IMG/VR virus record: IMGVR_UViG_3300032069_000005
Location: 1 to 64,000 of that record
Length of the DNA stretch: 64,000 bases
Strand: one strand, 5' to 3'
Source of the DNA: a virus
Below are positions 4,152 through 55,444 of this stretch, one piece after another; position 1 is the first letter of the stretch, and each line of letters begins with the position of its first letter. The position numbers and the translations under genes are program-made. A model generated the notes under the pieces. It saw only the letters and a list, made by a program, of their open reading frames with translations, was not told the DNA's origin and did no database searches.

Positions 4152-4288
4152 AAATCTATCGTTGTTGTATAGGAATTCACAAAAAATATAGATGTTTTGT
4201 TATTAGTATTTATAGGTTGAAGATTGAGATTATTTCTTTTGGAAGAAAAAGAATGTATTGTATTTCTTGGAATGATTGGGGCGAATAA
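4148..4288 (+). CDS. Basic micro-protein (46 aa)
   Basis: Coupled to the preceding gene through ATGA. Rich in Arg, Lys, Ile and Cys (MKIYRCCIGIHKKYRC). It ends just before the strong ribosome site of the next gene. No family is recognised. Confidence 0.45.
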   Translation: MKIYRCCIGIHKKYRCFVISIYRLKIEIISFGRKRMYCISWNDWGE

Positions 4289-4302
4289 TAAGGAGGCTCA
4301 CA

Positions 4303-4710
4303 ATGGCTAAAAACGCTGGCTTTACCTGGCATTGTCATCACACTGTTTTATTAGAGTTTTGTTACGACTACAATAAAAGAAAAAACATTATTAAAACTAC
4401 TAAATCCAAAAACGAAATAGAAACTCGCTTACGCCTATTTAAATTTGTTAAAGGCAAACTCCCCGGTGGAATTATTAAGACTGGGCAAAAGCAAGCAAAA
4501 GCTTGGCAGAAGTGGCAGGAGGCTTGGGTCTCGTGCGGCACGTCTTGGCAGGAATACAATGAAGCTTGGCTGAAATACAATGCAGTGGGGCAGGAATGGA
4601 AAAAAGCTTTATCTAAATATAAAAACCGTTTAGAAGCCCTACACAAACAAGAATGTGGATGTAAGGAATGGAACGGAAAAGAGATAGTATTCCCAAAAGA
4701 AATAAAATGA
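4303..4710 (+). CDS. HH...CYDY / CGCKEWNGKE family protein
   Basis: 135 aa. ATG 4303 is chosen over an upstream TTG (4276) because AAGGAGG at 4290-4296 is ideally placed. The N-terminus (HCHHTVLLEFCYDY, then ETRLRLFK) and C-terminus (CGCKEWNGKEIVFPK) match those of the gene at 11459. The middle is a degenerate Trp/Ala-rich repeat (WQKWQEAW, WQEYNEAW) where the paralogue has a clean 7-residue repeat. His and Cys clusters at both ends suggest metal binding. Function is unknown. Confidence 0.7.
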   Translation: MAKNAGFTWHCHHTVLLEFCYDYNKRKNIIKTTKSKNEIETRLRLFKFVKGKLPGGIIKTGQKQAKAWQKWQEAWVSCGTSWQEYNEAWLKYNAVGQEWKKALSKYKNRLEALHKQECGCKEWNGKEIVFPKEIK

Positions 4711-11285: not shown

Positions 11286-11462
11286 ATGGAAGAAATTAAA
11301 CCTACGCCAGAACAAATTGAAACAAAGAAAAAAGAATTTAAATTACTTCAAGAAAAAATGACAAAAGCAATGTCAAAAATTAATGCTATCTTGGAAGAAG
11401 AGGGGTTAGTATTGCGAATTGCTCAAGATATTATATTAGCACCTAAAAGGGAGGTAAAATGA
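11286..11462 (+). CDS. Helical micro-protein (58 aa)
   Basis: Lys/Glu-rich, probably coiled coil (EQIETKKKEFKLLQEKMTK...). It starts just after the nuclease gene, and its stop overlaps the next start as ATGA. Its final codons contain the GGGAGG ribosome site of the repeat gene. Function is unknown. Confidence 0.55.
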   Translation: MEEIKPTPEQIETKKKEFKLLQEKMTKAMSKINAILEEEGLVLRIAQDIILAPKREVK

Positions 11463-12010
11463 AAACTGCGGGTTTAGCCATACACGTTCACCACAATATT
11501 TTAGTAGAGAATTGCTATGATTATAAAGAACGAGAAGAAGCGATAAAAGCTGCTAAACCTCTAAACGAACAAGAAATAAGATTACGTCTATTTAAAATGT
11601 TACCAAAAAAAGCCATAGCTGAATTGCCAAGAAATTTAATCAAGGCAATCGCTGACTGGGATAAGGCAAACGCTGACTGGGATAAGGCAAACGCTGACCT
11701 GGATAAGGCAAACGCTGACCTGGATAAGGCAAACGCTGACCTGGATAAGGCAAACGCTGACTGGGATAAGGCAAACGCTGACCCGGATAAGGCAATCGCT
11801 GACCTGGATAAGGCAATCGCTGACTGGGATAAGGCAAACGCTGACCTGGATAAGGCAAACGCTGACCTGGATAAGGCATACGCTGACCTGGATAAGGCAA
11901 ACGCTGACTGGGATAAGGCAAACCAAGAAGCTTGGCATAAGAAATGGTGCGGTTGTAAGGAATGGAACGGGAAAGAGATTATATTTCCAAAAAATAAAAA
12001 ACGATTATGA
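11459..12010 (+). CDS. Tandem-heptapeptide protein, HH...CYDY family
   Basis: 183 aa. The N-terminus (HVHHNILVENCYDY, IRLRLFK) and C-terminus (CGCKEWNGKEIIFPK) are shared with the protein at 4303. Between them lie about 14 copies of a 7-residue unit, DKANADL or DKANADW with minor changes, encoded by a 21-bp tandem repeat. The repeat is Ala/Asp-rich and should form one long helix. Because the unit is 21 bp, copy-number changes would keep the frame. Function is unknown; terminal His and Cys clusters suggest metal binding. Confidence 0.75.
   Translation: MKTAGLAIHVHHNILVENCYDYKEREEAIKAAKPLNEQEIRLRLFKMLPKKAIAELPRNLIKAIADWDKANADWDKANADLDKANADLDKANADLDKANADWDKANADPDKAIADLDKAIADWDKANADLDKANADLDKAYADLDKANADWDKANQEAWHKKWCGCKEWNGKEIIFPKNKKRL
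11642..11923 (+). repeat. 21-bp in-frame tandem repeat (about 13.4 copies)
   Basis: AAGGCA recurs 14 times at exact 21-bp spacing from 11642 to 11915. Units differ by a few substitutions (CTG/TGG/CCG and AAC/ATC/TAC codons). The array is GC-rich compared with its surroundings and wholly inside the gene at 11459. Confidence 0.95.
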
Positions 12011-18928: not shown

Positions 18929-19108
18929 ATGATTAATATTATAAATTACCACTGGGTTTGGTATTTATTGGGATTTATATTTGCTCCGAGATTAACATTT
19001 ATGATTTGGTTATCTATTTATTTTAGAACGATTTTGCCAATGCCATTATATATTATTGGTTGGATTTTGGCAATAATCCAACCAATAACAAAATTAGGAG
19101 ATGAATAA
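18929..19108 (+). CDS. Two-helix membrane protein (59 aa)
   Basis: ATG 18929 gives a membrane protein with two helices (about 8-28 and 34-52), the turn holding APRLT. It lies immediately after the diphosphohydrolase. No family is recognised. Confidence 0.5.
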   Translation: MINIINYHWVWYLLGFIFAPRLTFMIWLSIYFRTILPMPLYIIGWILAIIQPITKLGDE

Positions 19109-26435: not shown

Positions 26436-26750
26436 ATGTTTAAAGATATTATATATCAGATTTATTCGGATATAGAAATAAGAATTTATGAATTAGCAGA
26501 CAAAAAAATACTTATTTTTATTATAGCTGCTTGGTTATTTAATTTACAAGATAAATTAATATTTAAATGGCTAAGATTGCAGTGTTGGTTATTTGGATGT
26601 GAAGAAAGGGGCGGATATGGGGGATTTAATCTTCCTTGTGATGCTTATTGCTTTTATTGTAATAGATGCGGAGCAACTTATAGTAATTATGAAGGAAACA
26701 CCAATTATCATTTATTAAAAGGGATTTTTAAAAGAAAATATAATGCTTAA
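26436..26750 (+). CDS. Membrane-associated zinc-ribbon protein (104 aa)
   Basis: A hydrophobic segment (about 27-47), then a Cys-rich C-terminal half (CWLFGCEERGGYGGFNLPC and CFYCNRCG). Metal binding is likely. It overlaps the polymerase start by 8 nt. No family is recognised. Confidence 0.5.
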   Translation: MFKDIIYQIYSDIEIRIYELADKKILIFIIAAWLFNLQDKLIFKWLRLQCWLFGCEERGGYGGFNLPCDAYCFYCNRCGATYSNYEGNTNYHLLKGIFKRKYNA

Positions 26751-28983
26751 TCTTCCAATCCAAAATATATCCTCAATTGGTCGTGAAATAATTCTCTTTA
26801 ATCGACAACAAAGCGGAGAGCTTACAATAATGAGAGATTTATTGTTCAGTCCCTATTATTATGTTCCTTCTCCTACTGGAATATTTAGAGGATACTTTGG
26901 CGGAAAATATGATAAAGTTACTTGTAAAAATCCCCGGGAAATAAAAGATAAACGAAATGTAAAAACAGATGGGGAAAGTGATGTTCCATATGTTCGTCGT
27001 TATCTACTTGATAAAGTAAATATAATTAAATCTCCTACGAGATGGATTATGTTTGATATTGAGACTCTTAGTAAAATTGTTCCTAATCCATTGGTTGCCC
27101 CAGACCCAATTACTTCAATAACCGCATATGATAATTATGAAAAAAAGTATATTCAATTTTGGTGCGAAAATTATCCATCTGAATATGAACTTATAGATGC
27201 GTTTATCAATTATATTAAGGAAAGGAAGCCAGATTTACTCCTGGCGTATAATATAAATGGATTTGATATGCCTTATTTGGTTACTCGTTTTTCTGACTTC
27301 GGAGAAAAGGTTAGCCCCATAGGACAAATTAAAAAAAGAAATGGATACCCAGAAGGAATCAGTATAGTCGACTATTATGAACTCATTAAAAAAGTATATA
27401 AATATAAGAGGCATACTTTAGATTTTATTTATTCTGATGAATTTAAAGTTCCCCAGAATTTTATAAAATATAGATTTAATGAGATTAGCCCAATCATTAA
27501 AGAAAAGAATCTGGAAGATGTAAAAAAAATGGTCGCCTTAGAAAATAAATTGCATCTCATTGATTATTTTGATGAACAAAGGAGAATTGCAAAAGTTCTT
27601 TGGGAAGATTTATGTCATTTTAGTGTATCTATCGATGGATTGATTTTGCAAACTGCGAAATCTAAAGGCGTAGTCTTACCGAGTAAACCAGACGAAGAAG
27701 AAAAACTTCGTCGAATAGAGGAAGATGAAATCGAAGGCGGATATGTATTTGCCCAACCAGGAAAATATGATGACGCTTCTTTACTAGATATTTCTGGGAC
27801 ATACCCGAATCTAATTACTACATTTAATCTTGACCCTGTAAATAAGAAGAAAATCCCCAATTCGCAGACAGTAACTATCAGAAAAATCCACATAGAACAG
27901 AATCCCAACGCCATTGTGCCAACAGTTGCCAATAGATTAATCGCTTCTCGTAAACAAATCCAAAAAGAACTCGAAGGAAAAACAGGCGAAGAATATGATT
28001 TATTAAAGAAAAAAGATGATGCACATAAATCGCTTAATAATGTGGTCTACGGGATTTTGCTTTTTAAGAATTCTCGTATATATGATAAAGACATCGCCGA
28101 TTGCATTACCTATTTAGCGAGGTTCTTAATTCGATATACCAAATTTGCTTTAAGAAAATTGGGATATTCAGTCATTTCTTCAGACACCGATTCTATTTTT
28201 GTTCATTCCAGAGATTATGAGAAAATAGAAAAATTATGCAATGAAACATTAATTCCTAACTGGCTTAGACACTTTGGCAAAACAGAAGGAACTCTGAGAT
28301 TTAAATATGAAGGATATTTTGAGAATGTTGTTTTTGAAGCACCAAAACATTACAGAGGCAATTTTGTTACTGCTAAGGGCGAACATAAAATGATAAATAA
28401 AGGCATCGAAATTGTTCGCAAAGATTCTTCTAAATTTCAAGAAGAATTTTTAGAGGAATTATATAATAGAATTTTAAAAAATGAAAGTGAGCAAACCATC
28501 TCTAATTGGATATTAGAACAAATAAAAGAATTACCCAATAAACCATTGAAAAATATTGCATTTCCTTTTCAAATAGTCCAAAAAATTTATAATAGTATTC
28601 CTATATCTATTCGAGCACTTCAATATACTGACGAAATAATTCCCAATTTTAGTCAAGATTATCATAATGAATTATATTATATTTATGTTAAACCATTTGG
28701 AACAGCAGAAAGACATTCCAAAAGTATGCGAAAGAATAAAGATACTGGAAAAAAGGAATTAAAAGAATCACATACTATAATAAATAAGAACGTCCTCGCC
28801 TTTGACGAAAATACTGACCACATAAAAGAAGTAGATTATTCAGAAATGATTAGACGCAATATTTTAGATAAGGCGGAAAAGCTCTTTGATGTTTTGGGAT
28901 GGAATAAAGAATTGATTGGGATAAAAAAGAAAATTTCTAAAAAAGATGCAATTGCCGAACTCAAAAAAAGAGGATTATTATAA
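26743..28983 (+). CDS. Family B DNA polymerase
   Basis: 746 aa. The 3'-5' exonuclease motifs are present: FDIETL (Exo I, 104-109), YNINGFDMPYL (Exo II, 169-179) and KRHTLDFIYSD (Exo III region). Polymerase motif A is atypical (ASLLDISGTYPNLI, about 343, instead of SLYP). Motif B is KSLNNVVYG and motif C is SSDTDSI (about 478-484) with both aspartates. It is the replicative polymerase of the element. Its last 16 codons are copied downstream (29989-30036) by a tandem duplication. Confidence 0.88.
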   Translation: MLNLPIQNISSIGREIILFNRQQSGELTIMRDLLFSPYYYVPSPTGIFRGYFGGKYDKVTCKNPREIKDKRNVKTDGESDVPYVRRYLLDKVNIIKSPTRWIMFDIETLSKIVPNPLVAPDPITSITAYDNYEKKYIQFWCENYPSEYELIDAFINYIKERKPDLLLAYNINGFDMPYLVTRFSDFGEKVSPIGQIKKRNGYPEGISIVDYYELIKKVYKYKRHTLDFIYSDEFKVPQNFIKYRFNEISPIIKEKNLEDVKKMVALENKLHLIDYFDEQRRIAKVLWEDLCHFSVSIDGLILQTAKSKGVVLPSKPDEEEKLRRIEEDEIEGGYVFAQPGKYDDASLLDISGTYPNLITTFNLDPVNKKKIPNSQTVTIRKIHIEQNPNAIVPTVANRLIASRKQIQKELEGKTGEEYDLLKKKDDAHKSLNNVVYGILLFKNSRIYDKDIADCITYLARFLIRYTKFALRKLGYSVISSDTDSIFVHSRDYEKIEKLCNETLIPNWLRHFGKTEGTLRFKYEGYFENVVFEAPKHYRGNFVTAKGEHKMINKGIEIVRKDSSKFQEEFLEELYNRILKNESEQTISNWILEQIKELPNKPLKNIAFPFQIVQKIYNSIPISIRALQYTDEIIPNFSQDYHNELYYIYVKPFGTAERHSKSMRKNKDTGKKELKESHTIINKNVLAFDENTDHIKEVDYSEMIRRNILDKAEKLFDVLGWNKELIGIKKKISKKDAIAELKKRGLL

Positions 28984-29126
28984 TATGGATTTATCTAAAT
29001 TATCTAATGAAGAATTAATGAAAATAGCGAAAATATCTCCTAAATTTGCGGGGGAAGTATCGAAAAAGATACTCCTTGCTTCCAGCGAGGAAGGTGGGGT
29101 GCAAGTCCCTAACCCCGCTCCAAATA
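28936..29126 (+). repeat. 191-bp direct repeat, copy 1
   Basis: Matches 29989-30179 with an offset of 1053 bp. 28954-29126 is identical base for base to 30007-30179; the first 18 bp differ at a few positions. It spans the polymerase C-terminus and the first 47 codons of the first Mom-like gene. Confidence 0.95.
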
Positions 29127-29917
29127 AAGAATTAATAATTAAAAAAAAAGAAGAATTGATGCACTCTGATTTTGATTCTTCAAATTTTATGATAGAATTA
29201 ATTGAACCAAAAATGACATATGAGTGGATGATGTATAAACATTATGCACATAAAATACCTCCGGTTATTAAATATTGTTACGGTTTATTTAAAAATAAAC
29301 AACTCGTGGGGGTTTGTGTTTATGGAATATTGGCAAATAAAGAATATAATAATGGAAAATGTTTGTTTAAAAATTATCGAGTTGATGTTTTAGAATTAAA
29401 AAGATTAGTTGTAGATGATGATTTGCCAAAAAATACATTATCTTATTTTGTTTCAAAAACATTAAAAATGCTTCCACAACCAACGTGCGTTGTTAGTTAT
29501 GCAGATAGTAATCAAAATCATCACGGATATATTTATCAGGCTACCAATTGGTTATATACAGGTATGGGAAGAGGGAAATTAGCAATAATAGACAAATCAA
29601 CGGGAGAGGAAATTCACGAGAAAACGATATATGACAGGTATGGGACAAATAATATAGAAATTTTAAAAACTAAATTTGATTTTGATACAAAAATTTTAAA
29701 AGGAAAATATCGTTATTTAAAATTTATTGGAAATCATAAACAAAAAAAAGAAATGTTACACTCATTAAAATGGAAACTTTTTCCATATCCAAAAGGCGAT
29801 AATATCAATTATGATGCTTCTTATAAAATTAAAAATTTAAATATAAATAAAAAAGGAATAATTCAGGAAAAGAGAGAGGAAGATAGACAGACAGAAAAAC
29901 AGGAGGAAGAGAGATGA
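28985..29917 (+). CDS. Mom-like DNA-modification acyltransferase, copy 1
   Basis: 310 aa from ATG 28985. Residues 1-47 are a helical module identical to the paralogue at 30038. The core (about 60-260) has KHYAHKIPP, YGLFKNKQLVGVCVYG, ELKRLVVDDDLPKNTLSYF, SYADSNQNHHGYIYQATNW and EKTIYDRYG, the pattern of the phage Mu Mom-type GNAT family that modifies adenine in DNA. The C-terminal 17 residues (EKREEDRQTEKQEEER) again match the paralogue. It probably protects phage DNA from restriction. The exact modification cannot be read from sequence. Confidence 0.7.
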   Translation: MDLSKLSNEELMKIAKISPKFAGEVSKKILLASSEEGGVQVPNPAPNKELIIKKKEELMHSDFDSSNFMIELIEPKMTYEWMMYKHYAHKIPPVIKYCYGLFKNKQLVGVCVYGILANKEYNNGKCLFKNYRVDVLELKRLVVDDDLPKNTLSYFVSKTLKMLPQPTCVVSYADSNQNHHGYIYQATNWLYTGMGRGKLAIIDKSTGEEIHEKTIYDRYGTNNIEILKTKFDFDTKILKGKYRYLKFIGNHKQKKEMLHSLKWKLFPYPKGDNINYDASYKIKNLNINKKGIIQEKREEDRQTEKQEEER

Positions 29918-29919
29918 TA
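29857..29919 (+). repeat. 63-bp direct repeat, copy 1
   Basis: Matches 30874-30936 (offset 1017 bp) with one mismatch. It covers the last 20 codons of the Mom-like gene and the start of the next gene. It is purine-rich. Confidence 0.92.
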
Positions 29920-30036
29920 TTGAAATTTCAACAACATAATGGTTGGGTATATGTTTCTGATTTATATAAAGTAGAAACCAGACAAATGTCAAAAAAAGAA
30001 GCACTCGCCGAACTCAAAAAAAGAGGATTATTATAA
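29914..30036 (+). CDS. Hybrid 40-aa ORF at a duplication junction
   Basis: The N-terminal half (MILKFQQHNGWVYVSDLYKV) resembles the start of the gene at 30931. The C-terminal half (SKKEALAELKKRGLL) is nearly the same as the end of the DNA polymerase. It therefore looks like the fusion made when a block from the polymerase tail to the next gene was duplicated in tandem. It may be expressed, since it has the same ribosome site as the 30931 gene, but probably has no selected function. Confidence 0.6.
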   Translation: MILKFQQHNGWVYVSDLYKVETRQMSKKEALAELKKRGLL

Positions 30037-30179
30037 TATGGATTTATCTAAATTATCTAATGAAGAATTAATGAAAATAGCGAAAATATCTCCTAAATTT
30101 GCGGGGGAAGTATCGAAAAAGATACTCCTTGCTTCCAGCGAGGAAGGTGGGGTGCAAGTCCCTAACCCCGCTCCAAATA
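29989..30179 (+). repeat. 191-bp direct repeat, copy 2
   Basis: Second copy of the repeat at 28936. It includes the duplicated polymerase tail and the first 47 codons of the second Mom-like gene. A GC-rich hairpin (stem GTGGGGT/ACCCCGC) lies near its end in both copies. Confidence 0.95.
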
Positions 30180-30934
30180 TAAATAAAATCATAAAACAAA
30201 AATATGATAAAATACAAGACAATAAATCACAATCGAAAGAGATAAAAAATTTTAATTTAAAAGATTTAAATATGAAAGAATTGGAATTTCAAATAACTAA
30301 AGAATTTATTGTTAAGAATCATTACAGTCATACAATTTCTTCATCTATAAAAGCAAGTATTGGATTTTTTTATAATAATAAATTAGTTACTGCTATTGTT
30401 TATGGTCATCCAATTGGAATTAATGTTGGTTCTTGGTTGCAAGTTCCTGAAGGAAGTTATGCCGAATTAATTAGAGTTTTTAGTGTTGATGAGTTACCAA
30501 AAAATACGGAAAGTTATTGTTTGGCAAAGTCATTTGAATTTTTGAAGAAAAATAAACCAGAATTAAAATATTTAATTAGTTATGCAGACCCCACTCAAGG
30601 GCACGTAGGTTATATTTATCAAGCAACTAATTGGTATTATGTTGGTAAACAGATAGGAATGGATAGAATTTTTAAAATTGATGGCAAACAAGTTCATAGA
30701 AGAACCGCCAATGCTGCTTATGGAACATCTTCAGTTAAAAAATTATCAGAATTATTAGGCAAAAGATTTGAAGTATCAATAACATATCCAAAACACATTT
30801 ATTTAATGTGTTTGGGTTCTCGTAAAGAAAAAAAAGAATGGTATAATAAATTCAAACAATTACCATATCCTAAAATAATTCAAGAAAAGAGAGAGGAAGA
30901 TAGACAGACAGAAAAACAGGAGGAAGAGAGATGA
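30038..30934 (+). CDS. Mom-like DNA-modification acyltransferase, copy 2
   Basis: 298 aa. Same N-terminal 47-residue module and C-terminal tail as the gene at 28985, but a clearly divergent core: KNHYSHTISSSIKASIGFFYNNKLVTAIVYG, ELIRVFSVDELPKNTESY, SYADPTQGHVGYIYQATNW and RRTANAAYG. The family motif set of Mom-like GNAT enzymes is intact, so both copies may be active, perhaps with different specificity. Near-identical flanks with a divergent core suggest recombination at the flanks. Confidence 0.7.
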   Translation: MDLSKLSNEELMKIAKISPKFAGEVSKKILLASSEEGGVQVPNPAPNINKIIKQKYDKIQDNKSQSKEIKNFNLKDLNMKELEFQITKEFIVKNHYSHTISSSIKASIGFFYNNKLVTAIVYGHPIGINVGSWLQVPEGSYAELIRVFSVDELPKNTESYCLAKSFEFLKKNKPELKYLISYADPTQGHVGYIYQATNWYYVGKQIGMDRIFKIDGKQVHRRTANAAYGTSSVKKLSELLGKRFEVSITYPKHIYLMCLGSRKEKKEWYNKFKQLPYPKIIQEKREEDRQTEKQEEER

Positions 30935-30936
30935 TA
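30874..30936 (+). repeat. 63-bp direct repeat, copy 2
   Basis: Second copy of 29857-29919 with one difference (A for G at 30883). It ends six bases into the 30931 gene. Confidence 0.92.
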
Positions 30937-31194
30937 GTAAAAATTATTCAAGAAAATGGAGCATTGTTTTATGATGGATTTGAAAAAATCAGATATGAAT
31001 ATAAAACCAGTGAAGAAATGGAAACCATCGATACAAACGCTATGTGGATAAACAGTAAGTTGCCTCTGAGCGGAATTTTGATTATAGGTCGTAGAAAACC
31101 GATAATTGGAACTGACCCAGAATTTACTATTAGAACAAATGGGGAGACATATCTTCTTAATGATGAAGGTAAGACGATAGAAAGGATTAGATAA
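30931..31194 (+). CDS. Hypothetical beta-rich protein (87 aa)
   Basis: Overlaps the second Mom-like gene by 4 nt. The start resembles the 29914 ORF, which marks it as the right-hand end of the duplicated block. Beta-strand-rich with GILIIGRRKPIIGTDPEFTIRTNGE. No family is recognised. Confidence 0.5.
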   Translation: MIVKIIQENGALFYDGFEKIRYEYKTSEEMETIDTNAMWINSKLPLSGILIIGRRKPIIGTDPEFTIRTNGETYLLNDEGKTIERIR

Positions 31195-35874: not shown

Positions 35875-37958
35875 AACTCACCAAACTCAAATTAACTAAT
35901 ATTGGACTTTTCAAAGAAGGAACTTTAATTCCTCAACAAATTAATCTTATTAAAGGAATTAATTGCGATAATCCAAAAAATAGTTCCAATGGATGTGGGA
36001 AATCTACTCTTTTTAAAATCGCTTTATTATTTGGATTATTTGGAGAAACTTGCGGAAGAAAACTTGAACGAATAATTCATTCCGGTGCGAAAACTGCGGA
36101 AGTAGAATTGGAAATAACTCACGGCAGCAACATCATTCGCATTATTAGAAAAATCCCAACCAAATTACAGGTCTTTGTTAATGGCATAGATAGGGAATTT
36201 AATTCTTCTACAATCGCACAGAATTATCTTAATGAGATTTTTGGAGATTTTACTTTCTTTAAGAAGTATTGTTTAGTTGATACTAAATCCATTAACTTAT
36301 TAGATTCCTTAGATGATAGTAGGTCGATTGTTTCTTTTAAAAAGGAACTAATGGGTTTCATTGATACCGAATTCGCTCCGCACAGGGAATCATTATTAGG
36401 CAAAAAGAATGACCGAGAACTCTATTCAGTCGATAAGCGACTGTATAAATTTCATCTTTCCAAAAAGAGATTAGAGATACTCGAAAACGGGCTTGAAAGA
36501 ATTAAAGAAGAACTCAATAATGTTAATCGAGATAGAGAAATACAGCAGCAATCAATCAATCAATTGAGTGGGGAGATTACTTCTTCTGAATCTAAAATAG
36601 AATTTTTATATAATAAGGAAAGTGAAAATTTAAATAATATAGAACAGTGCAATGGGTTTGTTGAGGACAACAAAACGATAATAGAAAAATTAAATAATCT
36701 TCCGAAGCAAGAAAAAATAGCTGTAATTGATTATGATAAAGATTTATCTATAGCAGAAAAAAAATCGGAATCATTAAATCAAGAATTAAAAGAAAACGAA
36801 AAGAAGATAGACTTAGTTAAAAAGGATATTGAAAAAATTAATTTCCAGATTCATTCAGCCGAAAATGATTTAAGCAAGTATAATAATGATAAAGTAAAGT
36901 TAAATAAAGAAATCATTGGATTGGATAATGTTAAAATAGGAACGAAATGTGATAAGTGCGGTTCTCTTGTTTCAATAGAATATCGGGACAGTTATCGAAA
37001 AGATAAAACTAATGAAATTGAGGATATAATAAAAAAAGAAATTCTATTAAAGAATTCTTTAATTGAATTGCAGAATTCGCTTACTACAAAAAATAATGAA
37101 TTAAAATCATTAATTAATCGGAAATCGCTTGTGAGTGATAATATTGAAGTCATTAAAAAAGATATTAAAGAATTAAATAACAAAAAATTCGCACAAGCAG
37201 AGGCAGTAAAAAAACAGGAAAACTCGGCTACCCAGATTACAACTGATATTGAAAAACATCAAAATTCAATAAAAATATCCGAAGAACAGATAAAAAAATA
37301 TCTTAACCACAATATCGAAATAAAGAAAGAAATCTCTGAACTAAAAATTACTATTGAATCTAACAAAACTAAATTATCCGAAGAAAGTAATTGTATAGAT
37401 TATTACAATGATTTGTATAATGGAATACAACATAAAGAAACCAGGACTAAAGATTGTATAATGAAACTCAAAGAGGCATTTAAATTTTCGGATTATAAAT
37501 ACACTAAAGAAGATATTCGGCTCTATGCCGATTCAATTAAGACCCTGGATGCCTTTTCCGGCTACTATATACAGGAATGGATGAATAATTTGTCATTTAT
37601 TATTAATGACCTTTTAAAAGATTTAAATCTATCAATTGAATTAACCGATGAAAAAGAATTCCTAAAAATAAAAGACGGAGAAGAAGAACTTACTTATGCG
37701 GATTTAAGTGATGGGCAAAGGATTTTCTTTTCTGGAATATTTAAATTGGCGATTTTATTGAAAAAAGGCGAATCTGATGGAATAATTATAATGGATGATG
37801 GATTGGGATGTTTAGATAAAATTAATTTTAAAAATTTAATAGATATTTGCCAGAATCTCCCATTTCAGCTTTTTGCGGTTTTTCAGGATTTGCCAATAAT
37901 CGAAAATGTCAATGAATTTATAATAGAAAGAAAAAATGGTGAAAGCAAAATCATATAA
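35871..37958 (+). CDS. SbcC/Rad50-like ATPase (gp46-like)
   Basis: 695 aa. Walker A NGCGKSTL (about 42-49), long coiled-coil arms (about 190-560), a zinc hook KCDKCGSL (about 359-366), ABC signature LSDGQR (about 617-622) and Walker B IIIMDDGLG (about 638-646). It forms a complex with the SbcD-like subunit at 32966, tethering and resecting DNA ends. The two subunits are usually adjacent; here methyltransferase and SAM synthetase genes lie between. Confidence 0.8.
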   Translation: MKLTKLKLTNIGLFKEGTLIPQQINLIKGINCDNPKNSSNGCGKSTLFKIALLFGLFGETCGRKLERIIHSGAKTAEVELEITHGSNIIRIIRKIPTKLQVFVNGIDREFNSSTIAQNYLNEIFGDFTFFKKYCLVDTKSINLLDSLDDSRSIVSFKKELMGFIDTEFAPHRESLLGKKNDRELYSVDKRLYKFHLSKKRLEILENGLERIKEELNNVNRDREIQQQSINQLSGEITSSESKIEFLYNKESENLNNIEQCNGFVEDNKTIIEKLNNLPKQEKIAVIDYDKDLSIAEKKSESLNQELKENEKKIDLVKKDIEKINFQIHSAENDLSKYNNDKVKLNKEIIGLDNVKIGTKCDKCGSLVSIEYRDSYRKDKTNEIEDIIKKEILLKNSLIELQNSLTTKNNELKSLINRKSLVSDNIEVIKKDIKELNNKKFAQAEAVKKQENSATQITTDIEKHQNSIKISEEQIKKYLNHNIEIKKEISELKITIESNKTKLSEESNCIDYYNDLYNGIQHKETRTKDCIMKLKEAFKFSDYKYTKEDIRLYADSIKTLDAFSGYYIQEWMNNLSFIINDLLKDLNLSIELTDEKEFLKIKDGEEELTYADLSDGQRIFFSGIFKLAILLKKGESDGIIIMDDGLGCLDKINFKNLIDICQNLPFQLFAVFQDLPIIENVNEFIIERKNGESKII

Positions 37959-53476: not shown

Positions 53477-53935
53477 TTTTAAATCTACATCTAAACTCGG
53501 AGAAATAGAAAAGCACTGAATCGTATTGTTCATTCTAACTTCCGCAAATTGATTATGAGAGTCCAAATCCATATCAATGCCATAGACCGTAAAAAACCTA
53601 CTATAAACTAAACTTAAATCCCCTTGATACTGATAAAAAACCGCAGTTTTGATAAAAGGTAGCCAAGCTATTTTCAAATTCTTAAAAAGATTATCAAATA
53701 CATAAATTCCTCTATTTCTCGTATTGGAAATCTCTCTATAAAAAGGTTCGTAATAATGAAATTTCACCCAATCATATTCTATTGTTATTATTCGATTATT
53801 TATTTGTAAAATAGAACAATCAATTTCATTATCAATTTTTTCTTGTTTCAATTTCAAATCATATAAATCATTTCCTGAAGTAATTAAATCATTGTAGAGG
53901 GTTCTTATTTTATGTTTTTCTTGTTCGTAACCCAT
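53438..53935 (-). CDS. Tail-module protein, KHKIRxLYN family (165 aa)
   Basis: Starts MGYEQEKHKIRTLYNDL, an N-terminal motif shared with the genes at 54826 and 54965. The rest is beta-rich and aromatic. It overlaps the last plus-strand gene at its 3' end, with no terminator visible between the converging units. Probably a minor tail or baseplate part by position. Confidence 0.55.
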   Translation of the reverse strand: MGYEQEKHKIRTLYNDLITSGNDLYDLKLKQEKIDNEIDCSILQINNRIITIEYDWVKFHYYEPFYREISNTRNRGIYVFDNLFKNLKIAWLPFIKTAVFYQYQGDLSLVYSRFFTVYGIDMDLDSHNQFAEVRMNNTIQCFSISPSLDVDLKLMIQIYNPIGIN

Positions 53936-54825
53936 TATATTTTTCTCTCTTTGGAATCTATTCCTGACTTTATGGTTATTATTTCTTTCATTTGAGTTTG
54001 GTGTTGAGGAATATCTGCTTTATATTTGTTCTTAGTAATAATTTGCCCATAGGCAGAACCCAAATGAAAATGCCAAGTTCCATCTCCCACATCGTGCCTC
54101 GTTAACTGTTGTGAATATTGAGTAAACCGCAATGAAATATCTGGTATAGCATCAACCACTTCCTGTAATTCATATAAAGATTTCATCATTATTTTTCTAT
54201 CGCTTAACTTTATATAGAATTTTCCTTTAGCAGTTATAAAAAATTTAGGAACATTTAATGTTTCCATTTCGCCTAAATAAAAAGCATCTGGATAATTTCC
54301 CTTAATTTCTAAAATTTCTCCAGGAGGAAGTGGGTCAACTCCATATGTTCCGTGTAAATCTCCGTGATATAAATGAGGTCTCAATCCCATTGAATTTTCT
54401 TCCATTCCTCCGCCAATTACCCGCAGAGTAGTTACTTGTATCCGCCAATCTTTTAAAGAATCATAATAAATATATCTGGCATAAGAAGGAGATGTATCAT
54501 AATATAATGCTACATTAGAATCGAGATAAGAATTATATATTACTCCGTGATTGGGATACTGGTAATAAGGTAAAGAAGTTTTTTGGCATACCAAAACTCC
54601 ATCTACAAAAATACTATAATAATCCATCCACGATGGAGAAATACGATAAATTGGATATATTTCTTCTTCTAATTCCCTATCATAATTTATTAATAAATCA
54701 GAGTTAATATTTTTTATCATTTCTTCTGTAATATCCAAAGATGTAGAAAATCTTTTTGTATAAGAAATTAATTTATACTGTTCTTCCGCCTGGTCTTTAA
54801 AATTAGGAATAATGAGTTCTGACAT
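53935..54825 (-). CDS. Tail-module structural protein (296 aa)
   Basis: Begins MSELIIPNFKDQAEEQYKL. Beta-rich centre with PHLYHGDLHGTYGVDPLPPGE and late THHFHL-type His/Gly segments (GDGTWHFHLGSAYG). No family match. Position at the 3' end of the tail block suggests a fibre, baseplate or host-contact part. Overlaps its neighbour by one base. Confidence 0.55.
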   Translation of the reverse strand: MSELIIPNFKDQAEEQYKLISYTKRFSTSLDITEEMIKNINSDLLINYDRELEEEIYPIYRISPSWMDYYSIFVDGVLVCQKTSLPYYQYPNHGVIYNSYLDSNVALYYDTSPSYARYIYYDSLKDWRIQVTTLRVIGGGMEENSMGLRPHLYHGDLHGTYGVDPLPPGEILEIKGNYPDAFYLGEMETLNVPKFFITAKGKFYIKLSDRKIMMKSLYELQEVVDAIPDISLRFTQYSQQLTRHDVGDGTWHFHLGSAYGQIITKNKYKADIPQHQTQMKEIITIKSGIDSKERKI

Positions 54826-54990
54826 TTATATAATATTCTCCCAAGCCGATTCCAAATAAATTATTCTCTTAATAGAATTTCCAGAAGGATATTTTTCTCC
54901 ACTATAATTTATGTGTTTTATATCATTCTTTAATTCTTTATTTTTATTATAGATTGTTCTTATTTTATGTTTTTCTTGTTCGTAATTCAT
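54826..54990 (-). CDS. Short KHKIRxLYN-family protein (54 aa)
   Basis: MNYEQEKHKIRTIYNK followed by about 38 residues. It appears as a truncated copy of the genes on either side, which share the same opening. The start at 54990 (or MM at 54993) lies inside the upstream gene's 3' end. May be a chaperone-like fragment or a decayed copy. Confidence 0.45.
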   Translation of the reverse strand: MNYEQEKHKIRTIYNKNKELKNDIKHINYSGEKYPSGNSIKRIIYLESAWENII

Positions 54991-55444
54991 CATAGTATTT
55001 GGGATAATCAATAAATAATTTAATTTTTAATCTAATTGTGCTCACAGGAACATCATCTGGTAATGCTCCCAAAAATCCAAAATTAATCTGTAACATATAT
55101 ATAATCTCATCCGTAGATTCATTGAGAATTGTTTTAAAATATTCATAAGTAAAAATATTAAAATCATAATCGTCAAAACATTCATCATATGCTTCTAAAG
55201 GATAATAAATATAATTTATTTTTAAATAGGGAAGGATTTTTTTTGGAAAATTCTTTAATAATAATTCAAGTGTATATACTGGTTCTCCGATTGTATCTTC
55301 CAAAACATATTCCGCCTGTTTCTTTATATAATTAATACTTTTCCGTTCAATAATTTCTTTTTTTAATTTATCATATTCAGTATATTTTTCTTCAATTTTA
55401 TTATAGAGTATTCTTATTTTATGTTTTGTTAAATCATAATTCAT
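54965..55444 (-). CDS. Tail-module protein, KHKIRxLYN family (159 aa)
   Basis: ATG 55444 follows GAAGAAG and overlaps the previous stop; an upstream in-frame start at 55468 would add a Lys-only stretch from the other reading. Opens MNYDLTKHKIRILYNK, then a long charged helix and a beta-rich half. Third member of the local family. Function unknown, position suggests tail. Confidence 0.5.
   Translation of the reverse strand: MNYDLTKHKIRILYNKIEEKYTEYDKLKKEIIERKSINYIKKQAEYVLEDTIGEPVYTLELLLKNFPKKILPYLKINYIYYPLEAYDECFDDYDFNIFTYEYFKTILNESTDEIIYMLQINFGFLGALPDDVPVSTIRLKIKLFIDYPKYYDELRTRKT

Follow-up and report, generated by a model that had tools for sequence, protein, structure and literature searches.

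Tandem mom genes that each carry a tRNA-Gly(UCC)-like cloverleaf, a possible glycyl donor for DNA modification by Mom

Swinton et al. reportedly identified the product of Mu Mom as N6-carbamoylmethyl adenine, a glycinamide-type base that is isomeric with N6-glycyl adenine. In the literature found, the source of the group added by Mom is proposed rather than proven, the proposed donor being an acyl-coenzyme A (acyl-CoA) such as glycyl-CoA (PMC7824862). Delivery of glycine by tRNA outside translation is described in S. aureus, whose cell-wall tRNA-Gly isoacceptors, marked among other things by loss of the GG at positions 18-19, are thought to evade EF-Tu and to serve as the glycine source of a non-ribosomal transferase (PMC4052509), and a GNAT protein, the toxin TacT, recognises Gly-tRNA-Gly via U73 and G71 (PMC9976931). 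Here we describe a locus in the first 64,000 bases (bases 1-64000, hereafter the window) of an 86,231-bp virus record of metagenome type (IMG/VR IMGVR_UViG_3300032069_000005), in which two mom genes stand in tandem behind a family B DNA polymerase gene and each contains, in its reading frame, a 75-nt tRNA-Gly(UCC)-like cloverleaf with an encoded CCA. The probability that this is a two-gene Mom module in which each mom carries an unusual tRNA-Gly(UCC) gene serving as glycyl donor is, in our estimate, roughly one half.

The locus shares features with several described systems. Its proteins have in common with Mu Mom (8bv8) and the Mom family (PF25680, phrog_1384) a GNAT-type fold, membership of the family and an invariant serine where 8bv8 carries its mutation; the locus differs in that two genes with N-terminal extensions stand in tandem, and in that no tRNA-like gene was found in or near mom at about 100 other loci of the family (the Mu locus was not scanned). 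The likeness to the non-translation tRNA-Gly of Staphylococcus, which serves FemXAB, lies in an altered D-loop that has lost the GG; however, the acceptor there is a peptidoglycan precursor, whereas here it would be adenine in DNA, and the 51-63 pair of the T stem is G-C here and A-U there. TacT, too, is a GNAT-fold protein acting on Gly-tRNA-Gly with U73 and G71, but it acetylates the glycine, whereas Mom would transfer it. Viral tRNA-like structures of the tymovirus type likewise mimic a tRNA within a message and have a similar T-arm (GGGUGCAA[CG]UCCC); unlike those structures, the present element belongs to a DNA phage gene, lies at the 5' end of a frame, forms a regular cloverleaf and encodes UCCA. 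A search of the literature for Mom together with a tRNA found no paper.

Structure of the cloverleaf and its linkage to mom

The element lies at 29048-29122 and 30101-30175 on the plus strand, within the 5' block that the two genes share, and reads GCGGGGG-AA-GTATC(GAAAAA)GATAC-T-CCTTG(CTTCCAG)CGAGG-AAGG-TGGGG(TGCAAGT)CCCTA-ACCCCGC-T-CCA, with a GC content (29048-29122) of 57% compared with 30% for the window. Five distinct phage sequences of the element, a small sample, align without gaps; across them 99% of the cells in the 21 pairs are paired, and both sides have changed in 8 of the 21. Compensated variants are present in the acceptor stem (GCGGGG/CCCCGC, GCAGGG/CCCTGC, GCGAGG/CCTCGC), the anticodon stem (CCTTG/CGAGG, CGGAA/TTCCG, CCGAA/TTCGG) and the T stem (TGGGG/CCCTA, TAGCG/CGCTA, TAGAG/CTCTA). 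None of 500 shuffles reached the observed level of covariation, partners slid out of register were paired in 30-46%, the fold z was -3.4, and the cloverleaf was the minimum-energy fold in four of the five sequences. Between the window and the relative L001 there are 19 differences, 16 of them in stems, yet all 21 pairs are kept (2 of 100,000 random trials); the differences fall on codon positions 1, 2 and 3 in the numbers 7, 4 and 8, and change 8 of 25 residues. Because the pairs are kept while the differences are spread over the codon positions in this way, the RNA, and not the protein, is evidently what selection acts on, and selection on the cloverleaf is nearly certain. A transposon guide RNA, a riboswitch and a group I intron had been considered as identities of the conserved RNA and were dropped after its closing stem appeared in the relative L031.

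The anticodon loop (CTTCCAG, 7 nt, with U33), the T-loop (TGCAAGT, 7 nt) and the 3' TCCA are present in all five sequences, as are the anticodon UCC, G1-C72, C2-G71, U73, C35, C36 and the encoded CCA. In bacteria the glycine identity set comprises G1-C72, C2-G71, U73, C35 and C36 (PMC9976931). The RNA, in which the whole set is invariant, is probably charged with glycine. The marks of translation tRNAs, GG in the D-loop and TTC in the T-loop, are missing in 5/5, where GAAAAA and TGCAAGT are found.

The RNA structure and its linkage to mom were both demonstrated. In all six virus records the cloverleaf was found at mom alone, accompanied by either type of Mom core. A covariance model built from the five sequences scored the members at 98-106 bits (98 for copy 1 of the window) and retrieved nothing else at E = 10 or below from an 827-kb set containing some 70 other Mom loci; in the whole records of the relatives it found exactly one copy each, at mom. 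A custom cloverleaf scanner scored members, copy 1 among them, at 28.6-33.1, and when run on 587 kb of reversed sequence it gave no hit that reached 19. Patterns of the T-arm and anticodon-arm across viral contigs recovered the same phages only, and two contigs hit by a D-arm pattern (L130 and L131), which contain neither a cloverleaf nor a mom gene, were set aside as chance hits. With the standard tRNA model no tRNA was detected in the relatives' records or in the window's record; beside the Mom genes of L007-L027, L035-L041 and L042-L121 no tRNA was found apart from the same members; and a genome collection yielded three weak Mom relatives, 0/3 with the RNA.

The preliminary description of this DNA had proposed that related phages be compared for one, two or swapped cores, and single-copy relatives with either core were indeed found. 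In L001 (a 15.6-kb contig) one mom directly follows the polymerase; its core is of type 2, and the small gene lies downstream. L005 and L006 (77 and 40 kb) have one mom at the same site with core type 1, and core type 2 is found in L030 (47.7 kb; longer stretch L044) and in L031 (101.6 kb; also L043). The relatives show a single locus, pol-mom, at which the same 5' block precedes either of two deeply separate cores. Between L001 and L005, identity is 65% in the polymerase tail, 91% in the 94 bp before the tRNA and 97% in the tRNA itself, and drops to 49% over the 125 bp behind the tRNA and 55% in the core. Exchange of cores between phages at shared flanks is thus very probable, and the cloverleaf was retained through it. 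What the preliminary description overlooked is the reason for the preservation of the 5' flank, namely the tRNA-Gly-like gene within it.

Glycyl-tRNA as a possible donor for Mom

Both window genes are of the Mom type, as first proposed; they encode full-length Mom domains and match PF25680 (2.3e-38 and 3e-41; 132 and 142 bits against a cut-off of 27.1, covering 2-202 of 202) as well as phrog_1384. The cores were rightly said to differ widely, with about 43% protein identity. An AlphaFold model has a GNAT-like fold, with Mu Mom S124A (8bv8, 1.8e-13) as best PDB match and CoA-dependent GNATs next, at about 1e-5 or weaker. Serine S159 of copy 2 is invariant in 30 of 30 Moms and aligns by profile with the inactivating S124A of 8bv8, an equivalence that depends on an assumed nine-residue numbering offset. 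At the presumed place of the Q/RxxGxG/A site of CoA-binding GNATs, these Moms mostly have [GP]KNxxS. Two cores had been suggested to let the phage swap modification specificity. Every residue invariant across the 30 Moms is present in both cores, which may therefore share a single modification and place it, perhaps, at different sites. The stretch encoded by the tRNA in copy 2 (residues 22-46) is predicted to be disordered (predicted local distance difference test, pLDDT, of 33-46 by ten-residue block over residues 21-50), and the Mom domain is predicted with confidence. Since Mom proteins of other groups mostly begin directly at the core, the N-terminal extension appears not to be part of the enzyme proper.

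A tRNA-Gly with an altered elbow, never found without mom, present with two unrelated cores and in both tandem copies, resembles a dedicated donor carrier; being probably translation-avoiding, and kept through core exchange, it points to Gly-tRNA as the donor. The proposed route comprises processing, charging, escape from EF-Tu and donation to Mom. Part of the pol-mom transcript would be cut to release the tRNA, which host glycyl-tRNA synthetase would charge and which EF-Tu would bind poorly because the D-loop lacks GG. The GNAT-fold Mom would then take the glycyl group from the charged tRNA and place it on adenine N6 to give a glycinamide-type base, glycyl transfer followed by internal rearrangement presumably yielding the known Mom product. 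Uncut transcripts would be translated into Mom, so that enzyme and donor carrier would come from one stretch of DNA; as translation from the AGAGGA before ATG 28985 or 30038 is possible in uncut RNA only, tRNA and enzyme would be alternative fates of one RNA. We rate the chance that the tRNA is the glycine donor for Mom as close to even, and that of the complete scheme, an aminoacyl-tRNA-dependent DNA modification in which Mom moves glycine from glycyl-tRNA to adenine with a dedicated carrier tRNA within the enzyme gene, as slightly short of even. To our knowledge, no other DNA base modification is fed by an aminoacyl-tRNA, and this would be the first.

Several observations weigh against a glycyl-tRNA donor. 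The element was not called by ARAGORN, and Rfam searches of the region, at gathering thresholds and at E<=1, returned nothing, the tRNA model included; in a narrow window RF00005 reached 14.7 bits in L031, below the threshold of 29. The odd D-loop and T-loop would explain both misses, and standard tRNA finders miss tRNA-like genes of this kind, read in frame within a protein gene. The sample is limited to five distinct sequences, and the acceptor stem has six clear pairs and a G-A mismatch. In L005 the third acceptor pair is an A-C mismatch, and the minimum-energy fold keeps three arms and loses the acceptor stem. The Mom fold resembles that of CoA-dependent GNATs, and an acyl-CoA or glycyl-CoA donor is the published proposal (PMC7824862). 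Each excision of the tRNA would cut a mom message in two. Finally, no such RNA lies near about 100 other Mom loci, among them those of Listeria, Bacillus and Staphylococcus phages, so Mom in general needs no tRNA of its own, and if the route were general, phages without such a tRNA would have to use host Gly-tRNA.

Alternatively, the element could be cis-acting, a tRNA-like structure that is never excised and regulates how mom is translated or how stable its message is, for instance as a binding site for Mom, a synthetase or RNase P. Its position just 3' of the mom start and a Shine-Dalgarno-like site would suit such a role, the translation of Mu mom is controlled by Com via a hairpin (PMC6483171), and the best sub-threshold Rfam match in a narrow window was the tymovirus tRNA-like element; however, the full glycine identity set and the 3' UCCA are kept, which is hard to explain without a charged free 3' end, and we consider a cis-acting element unlikely. 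An ordinary accessory tRNA-Gly(UCC), helping the ribosome to read GGA and next to mom by an accident of gene order, is more doubtful still: tRNAs are common in phages and GGA is the top glycine codon of the window (137/242 in sampled ORFs, open reading frames), but the GG-less D-loop and odd T-loop TGCAAGT suit translation poorly, and the element is the sole tRNA candidate detected in six records, is located within the mom frame and stays at mom through core exchange. A role as recombination anchor only, a patch for the exchange of mom cores with no part in modification, would account for the sharp fall in identity at the tRNA 3' end between L001 and L005, but it is very improbable, as an anchor needs sequence and not pairing, and compensatory stem changes keep the structure while the sequence drifts (75-77% between the window and the others).

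The mom tandem and its relatives

All features of the locus are on the plus strand. The family B DNA polymerase gene (26743-28983; PF00136, 1e-31) contains in its last codons a Shine-Dalgarno-like AGAGGA (AAAAAAAGAGGATTATTATAATATGG) for mom copy 1. The 5' block, which includes the polymerase end, the mom start and the tRNA, is repeated perfectly over 173 bp (28954-29126 and 30007-30179, offset 1053), and a 63-bp 3' block recurs with a single mismatch at 29866 (29857-29919 and 30874-30936, offset 1017); base-by-base comparison here agrees with the preliminary description. As the 173-bp block is part of the window's highest-scoring repeat, it is not due to chance, and neither a third mom gene nor a third 5' block was found across the 86,231-bp record. 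Copy 1 of mom runs from ATG 28985 to 29917 (the ORF also opens at 28946; phrog_1384, 2.4e-53) with its type 1 Mom domain at 29186-29794, and copy 2 from 30038 to 30934 with its type 2 domain at 30266-30874. The repeats and cores are practically certain to be as given; since each core is bordered by the same pair of repeats, the order of the two could have been swapped during assembly.

Between the genes, a junction ORF (29914-30036) fuses the start of a gene resembling the one at 30931 with the polymerase tail, which is present here a second time (SKKEALAELKKRGLL vs SKKDAIAELKKRGLL), as had been claimed; from the alignment, that start belongs to a downstream gene of another allele. The second tail differs slightly from the first, and the junction is of the kind that an illegitimate join of two related genomes would leave. 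The intact small downstream gene follows at 30931-31194, its end matching that of L001 5910-6179 (YLLNDEGKTIERI). Recombination at the 173-bp repeat would leave core 2 alone, and at the 63-bp repeat core 1 alone, in each case with the downstream gene intact.

Cores and polymerases tell different histories: the core protein of window copy 2 is 84% identical to that of L001 and the polymerase 38%, whereas L030 and L001 share 61% in the core and 86% in the polymerase, so the cores evidently move independently of the polymerase. In a tree of 30 Mom cores, window copy 1 groups with L005 and members from L007-L026 (10 rows, 100/100), and copy 2 with L001, L044 and L043 (100/99). The tandem therefore joined two old Mom lineages and does not descend from one gene that diverged after duplication; the core behind the tRNA very probably passes from phage to phage through recombination in the shared flanks, and two unrelated cores, both accompanied by a tRNA, have here come to stand in tandem. 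Plain tandem duplication of a single mom gene, after which the cores diverged while gene conversion kept the flanks alike, is suggested by the repeat layout and junction ORF and had been proposed at first, but is scarcely credible, as the cores fall into two deep, strongly supported clades and both have a counterpart at this locus in single-copy relatives. Of the two earlier explanations for fresh flanks with old cores, cassette exchange is supported, since L001 and L005 have the same 5' block and different cores; the identical flanks would go back to shared ancestry combined with exchange or else to gene conversion at a later time. A polymerase search in viral contigs confirmed no close relatives.

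In L031 (4181-7381, minus strand) polymerase, tRNA-like element and Mom form a single uninterrupted frame of 1066 residues in which Pfam DNA_pol_B and Mom are both present. The polymerases of L001 (1738-5001; Intein_splicing below the cut-off, plus LAGLIDADG) and L005 (2681-6001; judged by eye) have long intein-like inserts at different positions, unlike the window polymerase, which has none. Two adjacent divergent mom genes without the tRNA-like element are present in each of L008 (5983-7293), L013 (4349-5770) and L027 (140-1385), with similar starts (SIKDxY) and ends (YKPxTQxKLF). Elsewhere in the window, a 21-bp unit is repeated 13 times in tandem at 11642-11923, within an ORF (11459-12010) parts of which are similar to 4276-4710. 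Short repeats with 80-88% identity at 53891-53939, 54946-54994 and 55388-55444 lie near minus-strand gene starts and are possibly shared promoters, and near-perfect palindromes at 19053-19088 and 37040-37069 are perhaps terminators.

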